64,000 nucleotides of DNA from Limnohabitans sp. Hippo3 (GTDB lineage Bacteria; Pseudomonadota; Gammaproteobacteria; Burkholderiales; Burkholderiaceae_C). The DNA is taken from assembly GCF_003063665.1 (NCBI RefSeq), contig NZ_NESF01000002.1, forward strand, positions 124,001 through 188,000, written 5' to 3'. The position numbers and the translations under genes are program-made. The notes under the pieces are model-generated. The model did not search any database and was not told where the DNA came from. It saw only the letters and a program-made list of their open reading frames with translations. This document shows, one piece after another, positions 447 to 6,139 of the stretch; position 1 is the first letter of the stretch; every line of letters starts with the position of its first letter.

Positions 447-941
447 TCAGAGCATCATGCTCAACTGGAACACTGAATTGGGTGCTCGCGGCATGACCGG
501 CGCAGGCAAGGGCTTGAGGCGGAATTGGCCCAGCATGGAAGTCACGCGGGCGTCGCGTGGCATGAAGGGCACGGCGACATCGTCCAGGGTCTGCGAGGCC
601 AGTGTTTCTTGCAGGTGGCGTTGGATGTCGGCTTCCAATGACTTCATCGGATGGCCATCGTCGGGGTACAGCTCGTCAAAGCTGTGCACCACTTCAAAGT
701 GCTTGACCACATCCCACAAGCTGATGTCTTCGGGGTTGCCGCGGATCTGGTAGCCGCCGCCCGGGCCACGGTGTGCCCGGATCAATCCGGCCTCGCGCAG
801 CTCCTTGAGTATCGACTCCGTGTAAGAGGACGACAACCCCAGGCCCGAAGCGATCTCTTCGGTCGTCACGGGCTCCACGGCTGAACGAGAAGTGATGAAA
901 ACCGCGATGTCGACGGCTTTGGCTGTTTTCTTCAGGATCAT
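447..941 (-). CDS. Rrf2-family transcriptional regulator
   Basis: A 164-residue Rrf2 winged-helix protein. Residues 1-80 carry the family HTH, including TTEEIASGLGLSSSYTESI and the wing HRGPGGGYQI. The ATG at 941 is chosen over an upstream in-frame start because GAGGAG lies about 8 nt before it and Rrf2 proteins usually begin MxLxxxxxYA-like. The three cysteines that bind Fe-S in IscR/NsrR-type members are absent from the segment after the wing, so it is probably not an Fe-S sensor. It is divergent from the MerR-type gene, with an AT-rich intergenic region (942-1065) shared by both promoters. Ligand and targets are unknown. Confidence 0.85.
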   Translation of the reverse strand: MILKKTAKAVDIAVFITSRSAVEPVTTEEIASGLGLSSSYTESILKELREAGLIRAHRGPGGGYQIRGNPEDISLWDVVKHFEVVHSFDELYPDDGHPMKSLEADIQRHLQETLASQTLDDVAVPFMPRDARVTSMLGQFRLKPLPAPVMPRAPNSVFQLSMML

Positions 942-1065
942 GATGCGCTCCTCATTTGAATCGGTATTGTATGGTTTAAACGCATAAAATCCACTCATAT
1001 CCTGTTTTATTTCTCAATAAACCTATTTTTACCTTAAAATATCTACTCAATACATAAACAAGACA

Positions 1066-2064
1066 ATGCCCAACACCCTCGATCCCCGTCCAGCGCTTTA
1101 CCGCATCGGTGCCGTTTCCAAGCTCAGCGGCGTGCCTGTGCCCACCTTGCGGATCTGGCAAACGCGCTACAGCGCCTTCTCGCCCGCCACCACCCAAGGG
1201 CAGCACAGGCTCTACGACGAGGAAGACCTGCGCAAAGCCACATTGCTCAAGTCACTGACCAGCCAAGGACACGGCATCAGCTTGATTGCCGGGCTGAGCA
1301 CCGCACAGTTGCAGCAGTTGTTGCAAACTGGCTCCCAGATGGCACGCGGGTCAGCGCCAGCGCCGCGATCCCCTGACAGCCAGCGCCATCGCTGGGTGCT
1401 GGTCGGTCACCACTTGGCCGAGCGTTTGCAATCCGAACACTTCAGATCCACCCACCCAGGACCCGCTGTGCACATTCAAGCGGTGTGGGCCGATTTGAAC
1501 GAAGCCCGCCAGAACCCCGAGGCCGCCGACACCGATGTGCTCATGGTCGCGGTGAACAACCTGAGCGACAGCAGTGCCCAGCAAATTCTCGATTTGTCCG
1601 CGCAATTGAGCGCACGCCAGACCGTGGTGTTGTATGGCTTTGGCCAAATGAAAGCCATCGACAGCCTGGCCCGCACGGGCTGCCTGCTGCACCGTGAACC
1701 CCTGAACGATGCGGCTTTGGCCAACATCGTGCGCAGCACACGCCCAGCACTGACTGACGCCTCCTGGGGCCTGCCCCATCTGAACGACCCCGTGCCGCCA
1801 CGCCAGTTTTCAGATGCGGTGCTGCAGCGGGTGGCCAATATTCCCAGCCAGGTGCTGTGCGAATGCCCTCGCCATGTGGCCGAGCTGATTGGCCAGTTGG
1901 GCCGTTTCGAAGACTACAGCCTGGACTGCTTGCAACAAAGCCCCAAAGACAGCGAGTTGCACACGCAGCTCCACAAGATGGCAGGCACAGCCCGTGCCTT
2001 GCTTGAAAAGGCCCTGCAGATGGTGGCCGACCACGAAGGCATCTCCCTGCAGGACCCGACCTGA
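1066..2064 (+). CDS. MerR-family regulator heading a photolyase cluster
   Basis: A 332-residue protein with a MerR HTH at about residues 12-70 (YRIGAVSKLSGVPVPTLRIW, then QHRLYDEEDL). Residues ~120-230 look like an alpha/beta, Rossmann-like domain, and the rest is helical. The overall layout resembles the light-responsive LitR/CarH group, which often sits next to photolyase genes, but the cobalamin-binding ExHxxG-type motif of that group is not visible. It precedes, at 24 bp, a small unknown gene that is coupled to two photolyase-family genes, so it may control them; this is inference from context. There is no strong ribosome binding site before the ATG. Confidence 0.8.
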   Translation: MPNTLDPRPALYRIGAVSKLSGVPVPTLRIWQTRYSAFSPATTQGQHRLYDEEDLRKATLLKSLTSQGHGISLIAGLSTAQLQQLLQTGSQMARGSAPAPRSPDSQRHRWVLVGHHLAERLQSEHFRSTHPGPAVHIQAVWADLNEARQNPEAADTDVLMVAVNNLSDSSAQQILDLSAQLSARQTVVLYGFGQMKAIDSLARTGCLLHREPLNDAALANIVRSTRPALTDASWGLPHLNDPVPPRQFSDAVLQRVANIPSQVLCECPRHVAELIGQLGRFEDYSLDCLQQSPKDSELHTQLHKMAGTARALLEKALQMVADHEGISLQDPT

Positions 2065-2088
2065 ACAGCACGCGCGGCTGAACTGCAC

Positions 2089-2628
2089 ATGAAACGACAC
2101 GTGGCCGCCACCTTGCTCGGCGTGACCGGCTTTTTGGTCATGGACAGCCACATCGACTGGGTTCGCCAGGACCACGGCATCCTGCTGGAGATCAACGGCC
2201 AAAAGTTCGATCCTCAAGGCTGGATGGCCGAGCACTGGCGGCCGTGGCGACAAGACTGTCAGCGCGTTCGCGCCGAAGCCCACGATACGGCCACGGCCCA
2301 GGCGGTGCTGCAAACCATTCAGCAACACAGCCTGCCGGACTCATTGGAAGCCCAACTCTTGCAACTGCACCTGCAAGCAGACTGGGCCATTGCCGAAGTC
2401 GCATTCAAAACCCTCAACCCCAGCATCGTGGTGTTGCGCCTAGAAGGTGATGCTTGGCTCATCCAAGACAGCGCCGTGTGGAGCGGCTCCACAGCACCTT
2501 GGCAACCGGCCCATTTTGTACGCCGTTATTTGCAACAACAAGCCCCGGAGATGCCTCAGGCCCTGATCGACTGCGTGCCCATTGAAGCCCGCCGCTATGC
2601 GGCCCTCTCTGATGGGGGACAGCTGTGA
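2089..2628 (+). CDS. Uncharacterised protein coupled to a photolyase gene
   Basis: A 179-residue soluble protein I do not recognise. The N-terminus (MKRHVAATLLGVTGFLVMDS) is mildly hydrophobic but is not a clear signal peptide. The middle has a helical, leucine/glutamine-rich stretch, and the C-terminal half is rich in aromatics and acidic residues. Its stop codon overlaps the GTG start of the next photolyase-type gene (GTGA, 2625-2628), which implies translational coupling and probably a shared role, for example as a partner of the photolyase or as part of the light response. No catalytic motif is visible. Confidence 0.7.
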   Translation: MKRHVAATLLGVTGFLVMDSHIDWVRQDHGILLEINGQKFDPQGWMAEHWRPWRQDCQRVRAEAHDTATAQAVLQTIQQHSLPDSLEAQLLQLHLQADWAIAEVAFKTLNPSIVVLRLEGDAWLIQDSAVWSGSTAPWQPAHFVRRYLQQQAPEMPQALIDCVPIEARRYAALSDGGQL

Positions 2629-4166
2629 CTTACCGCGTGGTCTGGTTAAAACGCGACCTGCGGCTGCACGACCATGCGGCACTGACCCATGCGGCAACCC
2701 AAGGCCCAGTGCTGTGCCTCTACATCGTCGAGCCCGGTTTGTGGGCGCAGCCCGATGCCGCCTTGCAACACTTCGAGTTCGTTCGCGAATCGCTGAATGA
2801 ACTGCACGAGGAGCTGCAGGCGGTGGGCGGCAGCCTGCAAGTGCGCGAAGGGCCTGCGGTGCAGGTGCTGGCCGCGCTGCATGCCCAAGCGCCTTTTGCC
2901 GAATTGGTCTCACACGAAGAAACCGGCAATGCCTTCACCTACGAGCGCGACCTGCAGGTCGGCGCGTGGTGCCGCAGCATCGGCCTGCCCTGGACCGAAC
3001 TGCCGCAGTTTGGCGTGGTGCGCCGCCTGAAAAGCCGCAACACCTGGCAAGCCCGCTGGGAGTCACACATGGCCGCGCCGCAAGCGGTCTTGCCCGAGTT
3101 GTACTTTGTTCATGCGCCTGAAAATGTTGGCCCCGAGGTGATGACACCGCCACCCGGCCTGCAGCACAACCCCACCCAGCGCCAGCACGGAGGTCGCCGC
3201 CTGGCGCTCGAGACCTTGCACAGCTTTCTGGATGCGCGTGCGCTGAGCTACCGGGGCGGCATCTCGTCACCGTTGTCCTCGCCCACCGCATGCTCACGTT
3301 TGTCGGCGTACCTGGCCTATGGCTGCATCAGCCTGCGCGAGGTGGTGCAGGCCACCCGCGCTGCGCTGGACGCCCTGCCACCGCAAGCAGGTCGCCACCG
3401 TGCGGGTCTGGTGGATTTCATGAGCCGCTTGTATTGGCACTGCCATTTCATCCAGAAGCTCGAGAGCGAGCCCGAAATCGAATGGCGCAACATGCACCGG
3501 GGTTACGATGGCCTGCGCGAAGACGACTGGAACGACGCCCACTTTGCAGCGCTGACATCGGCCCGCACCGGCTGGCCCATGGTGGACGCCTGCGTGGTCA
3601 TGCTGCACGAGACCGGCTGGCTGAACTTTCGCATGCGGGCCATGCTGGTGTCGGTGGCAGCCTACCCGCTGTGGCTCGACTGGCGGCCCGTGGGCCATTG
3701 GCTGGCCACGCAGTTTCTGGATTACGAGCCCGGCATCCACTGGAGCCAGCTGCAAATGCAGTCGGGCACCACCGGCATCAACACCACGCGGGTCTACAAC
3801 CCCATCAAACAAGCGCAAGACCACGACCCCAAAGGCATCTTTGTGCGCCGCTGGCTGCCGCACATGCGCCGAGTGCCCGACACCTGGTTGTTCGAGCCTT
3901 GGCTCATGCCGCCCGAGGTGCAGCGCCACTGTGGCCTGACGGTGGGCGTGGACATCCCAGAGCCGCTGGTGGACCTGGCCGAGGCCACACACACCGCCAA
4001 AGCGGCGCTGCACGCCCGCCGGGCTGAACCCGGTGTCAAGGCGGGCAAAAAAGCCGTCATCGACAAGCATGCATCGCGCAAAACGATAGCTCCGAATCCA
4101 CGCAACACCCGAAAAAAATCGCCTAACACCAACGTGTCCAGCACACAGCTGGGCTTTGACTTTTAA
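2625..4166 (+). CDS. Cryptochrome/photolyase family protein, atypical subclass
   Basis: A 513-residue protein of the blue-light flavoprotein family. The N-terminal alpha/beta domain begins VVWLKRDLRLHDHAAL; the C-terminal helical FAD-binding domain has GWPMVDACVVMLHETGWLNF and FRMRAMLVSVAAYP. The FAD-site loop at about residues 366-405 reads DYEPGIHWSQLQMQSGTTGI then TTRVYNPIKQAQDHDPKG, unlike both the NNGGWQW loop of class I CPD photolyases and the DASH loop. It ends in a basic, low-complexity tail (~440-513) that could bind DNA. It starts with GTG overlapping the previous stop, and is followed after 3 nt by a cryptochrome-DASH gene. Whether it repairs DNA or senses light cannot be read from sequence. 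Confidence 0.85.
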   Translation: MTYRVVWLKRDLRLHDHAALTHAATQGPVLCLYIVEPGLWAQPDAALQHFEFVRESLNELHEELQAVGGSLQVREGPAVQVLAALHAQAPFAELVSHEETGNAFTYERDLQVGAWCRSIGLPWTELPQFGVVRRLKSRNTWQARWESHMAAPQAVLPELYFVHAPENVGPEVMTPPPGLQHNPTQRQHGGRRLALETLHSFLDARALSYRGGISSPLSSPTACSRLSAYLAYGCISLREVVQATRAALDALPPQAGRHRAGLVDFMSRLYWHCHFIQKLESEPEIEWRNMHRGYDGLREDDWNDAHFAALTSARTGWPMVDACVVMLHETGWLNFRMRAMLVSVAAYPLWLDWRPVGHWLATQFLDYEPGIHWSQLQMQSGTTGINTTRVYNPIKQAQDHDPKGIFVRRWLPHMRRVPDTWLFEPWLMPPEVQRHCGLTVGVDIPEPLVDLAEATHTAKAALHARRAEPGVKAGKKAVIDKHASRKTIAPNPRNTRKKSPNTNVSSTQLGFDF

Positions 4167-4169
4167 ACC

Positions 4170-5489
4170 ATGCGCACCACCCTCTTCTGGTTCCGAAACG
4201 ACTTGCGCCTGCACGACCAACGCGCCTTGAAGCAAGCCATTGAGCACGCCCAAACGCATGGCCAAGCCCTGTTGCTGGTCTATGTGCACGAACCCGTGCA
4301 AGACGCGCCCACCGCTTGGGACTTTCGCCGCATGGGCGAGCACCGCAGGCGTTTTCTGGCTGACACGTTGCAAGACTTGCAAGCCTCGCTGCAGGCTTTG
4401 GGCCAGCACCTAGTGTTGCTGCACGGCCCCGTGGCCGAGGTGCTGCCCACTTGCGCCAGCCATGTGGGCGCAGACACCGTGTTTTGCGAAGACATCGCCG
4501 CACCCGAAGAAGAAGCGCAGGTGCAGGCCCTGATCAACGCAGGCCTCACCGTCAAAACCCTGTGGCAGTCCAGCCTGATCGAACCCGACGCCCTGCCCTT
4601 TGCGACCGAAGACATGCCGCAGGTGTTCACGGTGTTTCGCCAACGCATCGAATCGGCGAAGCTCCACCCCCTGGCACCGCTGCCCGCGCCCACCCAGTTG
4701 CCTGCGCCTCCGAGCGACAGCTTGACCGGCTTGCCCGGCTGGACTGAAGACCCGTTCACGCTGCTGCAAGCCCACACCGAATACGATGCGCACCCGCGCT
4801 CGAACTTTCCGTACACCCAAGCCGCCTGCCGGGGCGGCGAAACCAGCGCCTTGGCCCACCTGCAAAGCTACCTCACCCCGCCCTGGCCCGACCGCTACAA
4901 ACAAACCCGCAACGCCCTGCAAGGTCAGCACACCAGCAGCCACTGGTCGCCCTGGCTGGCCACGGGCGCGGTGTCGGCCCGCCGCATTTGGGCCCAGTTG
5001 CAGGCCTACGAACAAGCGCACGGCAGCAACGACGGCACGTATTGGCTGTGGTTTGAGCTGCTGTGGCGTGACAACTTCCGCATGCTGCACCTGCAGCACG
5101 GTCCGCAGCTCTATGCAGCGCGGGGTTTGTCGAACCTGCCCAAGCCCTCGCACTTTCCGAAAGACTTTGCACGCTGGTGCAGCGGCCAAACGGGCGAGCC
5201 CATCGTGGACGCGGGCATGCGCGAGCTGGCCGCCACCGGCTTCACCTCCAACCGCATGCGCCAAATCGTGGCCAGCTTTCTGGTGCACGACCTGTCTTGC
5301 GACTGGCGCGCGGGCGCGGCCTGGTTCGAATCGCAGCTGGTGGACTTTGATGTGCAAAGCAACCAGGGCAACTGGCTGTATGTGAGCGGCCGGGGCACCG
5401 ACCCGCGTGTGGGCAGGCGCTTCAACCCCGCCAAACAGACGCAAGACCACGACCCGCAGGGCCGCTACCGACAGGTCTGGCTGGCCTGA
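4170..5489 (+). CDS. Cryptochrome DASH / photolyase-like protein
   Basis: A 439-residue member of the photolyase superfamily. The N-terminal domain starts TTLFWFRNDLRLHDQRALKQ. The FAD-binding domain carries FELLWRDNFRMLHLQHGPQL, GEPIVDAGMRELAATGFTSN, and near residue 396 SNQGNWLYVSGRGTDPR followed by RRFNPAKQTQDHDPQGRY. The Gln-Gly-Asn-Trp loop and the spacing to the asparagine-proline motif are typical of the DASH subfamily, which repairs cyclobutane dimers mainly in single-stranded DNA and binds FAD and usually a folate antenna. It lies 3 nt after the atypical photolyase gene in the same transcription unit. Confidence 0.88.
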   Translation: MRTTLFWFRNDLRLHDQRALKQAIEHAQTHGQALLLVYVHEPVQDAPTAWDFRRMGEHRRRFLADTLQDLQASLQALGQHLVLLHGPVAEVLPTCASHVGADTVFCEDIAAPEEEAQVQALINAGLTVKTLWQSSLIEPDALPFATEDMPQVFTVFRQRIESAKLHPLAPLPAPTQLPAPPSDSLTGLPGWTEDPFTLLQAHTEYDAHPRSNFPYTQAACRGGETSALAHLQSYLTPPWPDRYKQTRNALQGQHTSSHWSPWLATGAVSARRIWAQLQAYEQAHGSNDGTYWLWFELLWRDNFRMLHLQHGPQLYAARGLSNLPKPSHFPKDFARWCSGQTGEPIVDAGMRELAATGFTSNRMRQIVASFLVHDLSCDWRAGAAWFESQLVDFDVQSNQGNWLYVSGRGTDPRVGRRFNPAKQTQDHDPQGRYRQVWLA

Positions 5490-5500
5490 TAATCGGGTGC

Positions 5501-6139
5501 ATGTATGCCATTCAATCCTGGGGGGACACCCTGCGCCTGCTGGTCGAGTTGTCGGCCACCGCCGCCTTTGCGCTGTCGGGCCTGATGGAAGCGGCCCGCA
5601 AGCGGCTCGACGCGGTGGGCGTGTGCGTGGTTGCGTTTCTGGCGGCCTTTGGCGGTGGCACGCTGCGCGACTTGCTGCTGGACTACCGGCCTTTTTTCTG
5701 GGTGCAACACACCGAAATGCTCTGGGGCGTGCTGGCCCTGTGCGTGGCGGCCATGCTGTTCATGCGCCAGCGCCATTTTGAAGTCACCGAAAAAGCGATC
5801 CTCTGGCCTGACGCCCTGGGGCTGGGCCTGTTCACCGCAACGGGTGTGCACCACGCGCTCCTGTCCACCATGCCCCCGGTGGTGGCCGTGCTCATGGGCC
5901 TGATCACGGGCGTGTTTGGCGGCGTGTTGCGCGACATGGTGTGCAACGAAATCCCCACCGCCTTCAAGGACCACCGTCCTTACGCGGTCTGCGCCTTTGC
6001 GGGCGGCTGGACTTATGTGGGCCTGTGGTCCACCGATGCCCCCGGCTGGGTGGCGCTGCTGGGTTGCGTGGTGGTCACGGTCGGGCTGCGTGGCCTGGCC
6101 CTGTGGCGCAACTGGCAGCTGCCCGCGTGGCGGGCCTGA
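5501..6139 (+). CDS. TRIC/UPF0126 family membrane protein
   Basis: A 212-residue inner-membrane protein with about seven hydrophobic segments arranged as two homologous halves. Each half has the family signature of a glycine run followed by Arg-Asp: AFGGGTLRDLLLD near residue 50 and GVFGGVLRDMVCNE near residue 139. Bacterial members are homologues of trimeric intracellular cation channels (older name UPF0126, YicG-like); the physiological ion or substrate is uncertain. It begins 11 nt after the cry-DASH stop, so it may be co-transcribed with the photolyases, though a functional link is not evident. Confidence 0.88.
   Translation: MYAIQSWGDTLRLLVELSATAAFALSGLMEAARKRLDAVGVCVVAFLAAFGGGTLRDLLLDYRPFFWVQHTEMLWGVLALCVAAMLFMRQRHFEVTEKAILWPDALGLGLFTATGVHHALLSTMPPVVAVLMGLITGVFGGVLRDMVCNEIPTAFKDHRPYAVCAFAGGWTYVGLWSTDAPGWVALLGCVVVTVGLRGLALWRNWQLPAWRA

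Follow-up and report, generated by a model that had tools for sequence, protein, structure and literature searches.

MerR-type regulators placed beside photolyase genes have been described in several forms. In Pseudomonas, the class II LitR proteins (PmlR2/PplR) are cobalamin-independent MerR regulators that sit at photolyase genes behind a direct-repeat promoter; they keep only a four-helix bundle, and the partner of PmlR2 is a short LOV protein whose role as anti-repressor was shown biochemically. The light clusters of this genus contain phrB, SDR, FAD-oxidoreductase, and folE genes. Class III LitR, assigned to Burkholderia, has an unrecognized C terminus and a light-dependent absorption change, and its chromophore is given as unknown (all according to the available portion of PMC9758184). 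In Vibrio cholerae, a MerR gene (VCA0056), a photolyase gene (phr, VCA0057), and a hypothetical gene (VCA0058) form a predicted operon, and VCA0056 and ChrR are both needed for the blue-light response (available portion of PMC5241685). Here we describe a comparable arrangement in a 64,000-nucleotide stretch (the window) of Limnohabitans sp. Hippo3, whose genome comprises 2.99 Mb in 31 contigs; the window is 124001-188000 of contig C12. In this window, a MerR-type regulator gene heads a tightly spaced set that encodes a 179-residue protein (working name p179), an atypical photolyase-family protein, and cryptochrome DASH (CryDASH). The likeness to V. cholerae is one of gene arrangement, Vibrio being ascribed a class IV LitR in the available portion of PMC9758184.

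The set lies on the forward strand. It begins with merR (positions 1066 to 2064; 332 residues, from the open reading frame and Pfam), followed after 24 nt by the p179 gene (2089 to 2628), which overlaps by 4 nt the gene for a 513-residue photolyase-family protein with a GTG start and both DNA_photolyase and FAD_binding_7 domains (2625 to 4166). The CryDASH gene follows after 3 nt (4170 to 5489; 439 residues) and passes the NCBIfam model TIGR02765 (crypto_DASH; 444.6 bits against a cutoff of 317.05). A preliminary description had placed four genes at 1066 to 5489 and read them as one light-repair unit. Open reading frames were found at all four places, and the short gaps, together with a gene order kept in other Limnohabitans, bear out the unit; because that order is conserved, it is not a chance arrangement. 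The range itself proved too short, with a divergent Rrf2-family gene on the merR side and a UPF0126-type gene downstream of CryDASH flanking the four.

With about even confidence, we read this locus as a light- or photo-oxidation-inducible repair operon under a class III LitR-type MerR regulator that takes its signal through a C-terminal Cys/His domain. Light and photo-oxidative stress are relevant to this host because its genome carries two reaction-center (Photo_RC) genes. In the proposed mechanism, MerR would bind WTCYACTCA direct repeats at a shared promoter and control its own gene plus the downstream p179, atypical photolyase, and CryDASH genes, which would be cotranscribed. The signal would enter through the CxCPxH...C...H domain; a metal or another cofactor is probably bound there and would change in response to light or reactive oxygen. 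MerR would then release (or remodel) the promoter, the photolyase-family proteins would handle DNA damage, and p179 would act in the envelope.

To follow the neighborhood across genomes, relatives of p179 were collected by a pattern search in a set of genomes with one per species, which returned 232 matches, 138 of them confirmed; because the best 80 of these were kept, the resulting set of 80 loci leans toward near relatives. The 35 closest loci (L029-L063), several with contigs that end nearby, form the core set, and the closest named relatives are Limnohabitans. A photolyase-family gene is present in all 35 core loci, the 513-residue type in 34 and CryDASH in 29. DUF2237 genes, whose family membership was confirmed at p179 loci, occur in 24/35; this family has been associated with phototrophy (available portion of PMC5932025). 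MerR accompanies p179 in 10 core loci, and in the other 25, p179 and photolyases are present and a MerR of this kind is absent. Among the 45 more distant loci, 18 have a photolyase-family gene in the examined flank (the 513-residue type in 10, a NewPHL-like protein with its FAD domain first in 9, and both in L100). In all, 53 of the 80 p179 loci are linked to a photolyase-family gene, which lies within 200 bp in 47 and 8 kb distant in L086, and the linked genes are of three kinds. The preliminary description had named, as the finding that would overturn it, a small gene occurring mostly without photolyases; these counts show the reverse. Of the 27 loci with no photolyase in the flank, 12 are truly unlinked, with at least 5 kb on each side, and the rest end nearer; DUF2237 adjoins p179 in two of the 27 (L103 and L104) and MerR in one (L071). 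Twenty of these 27 genomes encode the 513-residue type elsewhere (19 at E 1e-60, some as contig-end fragments), six of the remaining seven have a distant photolyase match only (~30% identity), and one has none.

The same association appears at the level of whole genomes. Among 299 genomes of the family, 12 encode p179 and 102 the 513-residue photolyase, which is found in 11/12 genomes with p179 and in 91/287 without it (Fisher p 4e-5); excluding two weak p179 matches leaves 9/10 with both (p 3e-4). These p-values are optimistic because the genomes are related. Alignment placed p179 in at least 2 of 399 order-level genomes, with up to eight candidates scored for each, a figure that may undercount, and a search of plasmids found no p179 match. 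These data indicate that p179 is a photolyase companion, despite its independence from MerR.

The regulator itself consists of a winged helix-turn-helix (HTH) domain (residues 12 to 77, positions 1099 to 1296; PF13411, E 1.3e-12), a flavodoxin-like middle domain recognized from sequence and a structure model (residues 107 to 228, positions 1384 to 1749), and a helical C-terminal domain delimited by alignment (residues 241 to 328, positions 1786 to 2049) that carries C265xC267PxH270, Y284, C288, and H299. A model built from 16 sequences (pLDDT 78, pTM 0.43) gave the HTH, a flavodoxin-like domain of five strands, and a C terminus made of helices, with the relative placement of the domains uncertain. 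In an alignment of 45 distinct rows, which includes the window copy and draws on several locus sets, every row keeps P24, T27-L-R29, W31, and R34 in the HTH and C265, C267, P268, H270, F281, E282, Y284, C288, L298, H299, R310, and E314 in the C-terminal domain. Nothing in Pfam scored over its cutoff behind the HTH (best AadA_C, E 0.0088, 16.7 against 22.2 bits), the C-terminal domain included, and that domain had no match among PDB sequences (best E 0.079). A literature search found no report on a CxCPxH domain, with subscription papers mostly outside its reach. Neither this domain nor the p179 family is covered by Pfam.

Matched by the description in the available portion of PMC9758184 rather than by sequence, the window MerR resembles regulators of the class III LitR type: it shares the N-terminal MerR HTH, a C terminus without a known domain, membership in the Burkholderiales, and, in its Burkholderia homologue, light-gene neighbors. 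The Burkholderia anthina homologue (32% identity over 99%) carries CxCPxH...C...H and has as neighbors genes for DUF2256, GTP cyclohydrolase I, sigma-70, SDR, FAD-oxidoreductase, DUF2878, and photolyase; the corresponding B. arboris region is unannotated and syntenic with it, and a Caballeronia MerR with the CxCPxH motif adjoins folE and SDR. Because these neighbors match the genes of the Pseudomonas light clusters, we place the regulator with those of light clusters. The gene sets differ: class III LitR lies in a cluster of GTP cyclohydrolase, SDR, FAD-oxidoreductase, and DUF2878 genes, and the window MerR heads p179, photolyase, and CryDASH. Full-length MerR was found in 45/299 family genomes (47 places, E below 2e-38), 29 of which also encode the 513-residue photolyase, with both genes within 10 kb in 16/29 (read by hand from tables). 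In 14 inspected MerR regions (L175-L188), the surrounding genes include DUF2256, SDR, and FAD-oxidoreductase, an illustration rather than a count because 12 of the 14 were picked for closeness of MerR and photolyase. If the class assignment holds, the invariant Cys/His set, common to the Limnohabitans, Burkholderia, and Caballeronia regulators (the latter two beside light genes) and to small stand-alone proteins, offers a direct site at which to test light sensing by class III LitR proteins. As a separate observation, a hypothetical protein of B. anthina (L192, 1027-1782) has a second half that by eye resembles the MerR middle domain, perhaps a decayed copy.

Upstream of merR on the forward strand, two WTCYACTCA direct repeats form a candidate MerR operator. 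The first, ATCCACTCA, lies at 989 to 997 and falls inside the Rrf2 open reading frame only if Rrf2 starts at 998; the second, ATCTACTCA, lies 52 bp further on at 1041 to 1049, within ATCTACTCAATACAT and directly after a -10-like TAAAAT (1035 to 1040). In a promoter scan, such -10-like sites were no commoner than in shuffled sequence (1 versus 1.1). The 110 bp ahead of merR contain at least one exact repeat in 13 of 16 MerR loci (the window and 15 others), and the other three (L032, L034, and L089) have near variants. In contrast, none of the 25 core loci lacking MerR has an exact copy in the 250 bp ahead of p179. Pairs of exact copies are spaced 51-52, 50, 41, or 30 bp apart, roughly whole helical turns. 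The 64-kb window contains three copies, two of them at the merR promoter, and ATCYACTCAAWAC has a single exact site in the genome of this strain, at the merR promoter, with 7 further one-mismatch sites; its reversed control pattern has 0 sites. The repeats thus mark MerR's promoter and suggest that MerR binds there, at an operator different from the TGTACA-N12-TGTACA of class II LitR.

Several observations weigh against the proposed operon. Across the wider set of 17 MerR loci, only four (L180, L181, L186, and L188) carry an exact repeat close to merR, and the Burkholderia and Caballeronia merR genes have none nearby; several of the other wider loci show looser ACTCA repeats by eye. Of the 45 genomes with full-length MerR, 16 lack a photolyase of the 513-residue type, and no light gene is annotated in the 8 kb around the Methylomagnum homologue. 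The Cys/His set might instead hold structural zinc. H270 is not kept in the stand-alone relatives of this domain, whose 1.5-kb flanks showed no light gene. Finally, Rrf2 could be the main regulator, because 25/35 core loci have no MerR yet keep a divergent Rrf2 gene.

In a different scheme, MerR represses without sensing light itself, and the sensor is a separate short BLUF protein that binds MerR and lifts repression. In Escherichia coli, BluF lifts repression by BluR in this way, and the short LOV anti-repressor of PmlR2 provides a precedent within class II LitR. We found two BLUF proteins in the genome of Limnohabitans sp. Hippo3, both short. The 147-residue protein follows a crtI-like desaturase gene (flavin amine-oxidase type) and crtB (phytoene-synthase type) in a row on contig C1 (L189, 5840-8946), ~16 kb from the reaction-center genes; the 140-residue protein begins 2 nt after the stop of folE (GTP cyclohydrolase I) on contig C27 (L191, 3294-4528). 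No match was found in this genome to one exact LOV pattern, which would miss variants. With two short BLUF proteins in the genome, one of them next to folE, this is a live rival, but neither gene is near the operon and a BLUF anti-repressor leaves the invariant Cys/His set unexplained; we consider it rather improbable.

Alternatively, the divergent Rrf2 protein (447 to 998, reverse strand; PF02082, E 8.5e-22) may be the real regulator of the operon, with MerR serving only one part of the clade. Its linkage to p179 is the more constant in close relatives (34/35 core loci against 10/35 for MerR), and at the sole miss, L056, the contig ends 210 bp upstream of p179 with the DNA already reading into an Rrf2 start. 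At the MerR-less loci L037-L063, a block conserved by eye, GATATTCTATGAC...GTCACAAAACAAC, lies between Rrf2 and p179 and is a candidate Rrf2 site. However, MerR accompanies p179 and photolyase in the more distant loci L087, L089, L096, and L098, and photolyase in another genus (L181 and L188); it is therefore not a recent addition. Moreover, Rrf2 was found in only 2 of the 14 inspected MerR regions. We give an Rrf2-controlled operon a low probability. The Rrf2 protein may in fact start at an internal ATG at 941 (MILKK...). It has no Cys and therefore lacks IscR-type Fe-S ligands.

The middle domain of MerR bears on whether cobalamin is the signal carrier. DxHxxG, the motif of B12 binding, is absent from the window copy and from the alignment of its relatives, and a phospho-site like that of receiver domains is not evident in its sequence. 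The claim of the preliminary description that this LitR-like regulator lacks the cobalamin motif and may sense differently therefore stands, and another sensing route is needed. Its question of whether the second domain aligns to a B12 domain has a divided answer: for the whole chain, Foldseek matched CarH best (E 7.6e-6, TM about 0.2, rmsd 18), but for the middle domain the VIA search ranks CheY-like receivers first (Z 12.0, 113 aligned, 2.8 A). A CarH/class I LitR mode, in which MerR binds adenosylcobalamin, is very improbable: the two proteins share a MerR HTH, here closest to the MlrA and CarH models, and a flavodoxin-like domain, but the window protein lacks the motif, has no helical bundle ahead of the middle domain, runs in another order (HTH, flavodoxin-like, helical), and carries the extra Cys/His domain. 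B12 binding was rejected on the missing motif.

Within the LitR-type reading, a more specific proposal is that CxCPxH-x17-C-x10-H is an undescribed cofactor sensor module, holding a metal, Fe-S, or heme, that makes the regulator let go of DNA under light or photo-oxidative stress. We regard this as tentative and rather unlikely as worded. If true, the domain would supply the chromophore site that class III LitR proteins have been missing, and stand-alone relatives of 89-112 residues in other Proteobacteria would be this module acting by itself. The C-terminal domain was found in at least 12 of 398 genomes of the phylum, with up to 13 candidates scored in each genome listed: five long open frames, with a MerR context seen in four, and seven short frames of 96-126 residues. 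In six of the seven (all but L218), a protein of 89-112 residues was read that keeps CxCP, C, and H299 and lacks H270. These six stand-alone relatives (CxCP...C...H) are L214 (1489-1827), L215, L216, L217, L219, and L220. In L214, L216, and L217, the stand-alone gene overlaps the end of a PfkB-type kinase gene, an assignment confirmed for L214.

The 513-residue protein was compared with described photolyases. It has the two-domain architecture of class I cyclobutane pyrimidine dimer (CPD) photolyase, in which E274, N378, and the Trp triad W306/W359/W382 are functional residues (E. coli Phr numbering, which omits Met1). At these five positions the 513-residue protein has R, H, D, W, and L, the D lying in a loosely aligned loop, with a W of the window copy two positions further along. 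The changes relative to E. coli Phr also include N341 to F, D374 to E, and W384 to M, and the protein keeps W277, R344, W359, D372, and the SRLS stretch. Tritonibacter, Duffyella, Vibrio, and five family members have the same substitutions at 274, 341, 374, 378, and 384; no relative of this type has W at position 382 (L, V, I, F, or M occur there), and W359 is G in Duffyella. Ten such proteins, including that of Deinococcus, form one group with 100/100 support in a 19-row tree with long branches. Five NCBIfam models matched, all far under their cutoffs (best 146.7 against 506 bits), and the Pfam matches lack the DPRP domain of iron-sulfur bacterial photolyases (FeS-BCP, PhrB/CryB). Relatives that are annotated are mostly called photo-lyase or FAD-binding, and that of Deinococcus uracil-DNA glycosylase. 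Judged by its residues and model scores, the protein is, as first described, an atypical photolyase-family member, with a putative role in repair. The locus thereby points to a photolyase clade in Proteobacteria and Deinococcus without most of the usual electron-transfer tryptophans; no name for this clade was found in the literature looked at, and it may be named in print.

A further photolyase kind is absent from the window and appears in genes adjoining p179 at other loci. NewPHL-type photolyases (Phr7; available portion of PMC9426592) have an N-terminal FAD domain and no antenna domain, as do these p179 neighbors, for which the name rests on domain order rather than on a family model of their own; FAD_binding_7 was confirmed for two. 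In L092, L093, L097, L101, and L106, the p179 relative is directly followed by such a NewPHL-like protein (FAD-binding photolyase domain, no antenna domain ahead).

The p179 protein has an N-terminal helix at residues 3 to 21, a probable membrane anchor, followed by an alpha/beta domain with C57, C162, and WSGxTxPW. The hydrophobic N-terminal stretch is present in the window copy and in 79/80 relatives (L076, where no ATG was found, was left out); the best 15-residue mean hydropathy has a median of 2.45, and the lowest value, 1.79, belongs to the window copy. In a 50-row alignment, the invariant residues are H21, D41, G44, C57, S81, P83, S85, W99, F106, L109, P111, W131-S-G133, T135, P137, W138, R145, L159, and C162, and exactly two Cys residues occur in 75 of the 80 sequences, with three in the other five. 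Because its relatives share the hydrophobic helix and two invariant Cys, the simplest reading is that p179 is probably a membrane-anchored, exported protein with a disulfide. No Pfam match was obtained at E 1, and 50 members of the family gave scattered weak Pfam matches only (best E 0.0015, in one member). The single NCBIfam match was the CarH model, far under its cutoff (E 0.0078, 15.5 against 400 bits), and PDB sequences gave chance-level matches only (best E 0.25). The AlphaFold2 model (pLDDT 90.7) had no Foldseek match under E 0.001, and its VIA rows reached at most Z 6.3, the top ones mostly cystatin-like; none of these can be relied on to assign a fold. A literature search found no report on the family, subscription papers being mostly outside its reach. 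The locus ties this unnamed, probably exported family to photolyases of three kinds.

The preliminary description had suggested that p179 might take part in sensing, and this part was not supported: p179 has a predicted anchor and two invariant Cys and stands with photolyases without MerR in 25/35 core loci. Since p179 is predicted to be membrane anchored or exported, a direct role in cytoplasmic light sensing is unlikely, and a cytoplasmic light co-sensor was set aside on the same grounds. Of that description as a whole, the unit, the atypical photolyase, and the B12-less MerR stand.

Two observations remain at the margins of the locus. More distant p179 relatives in L024-L026 have no photolyase in the examined stretch, and secD-like and phasin-like genes were seen by eye near those of L024 and L025. 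Downstream of CryDASH, the gene for a UPF0126/glycine-transporter-type membrane protein (5501 to 6139, forward strand; PF03458) may be cotranscribed with the unit, and a gene of this type comes next, with several contigs cut short, in 11/35 core loci.

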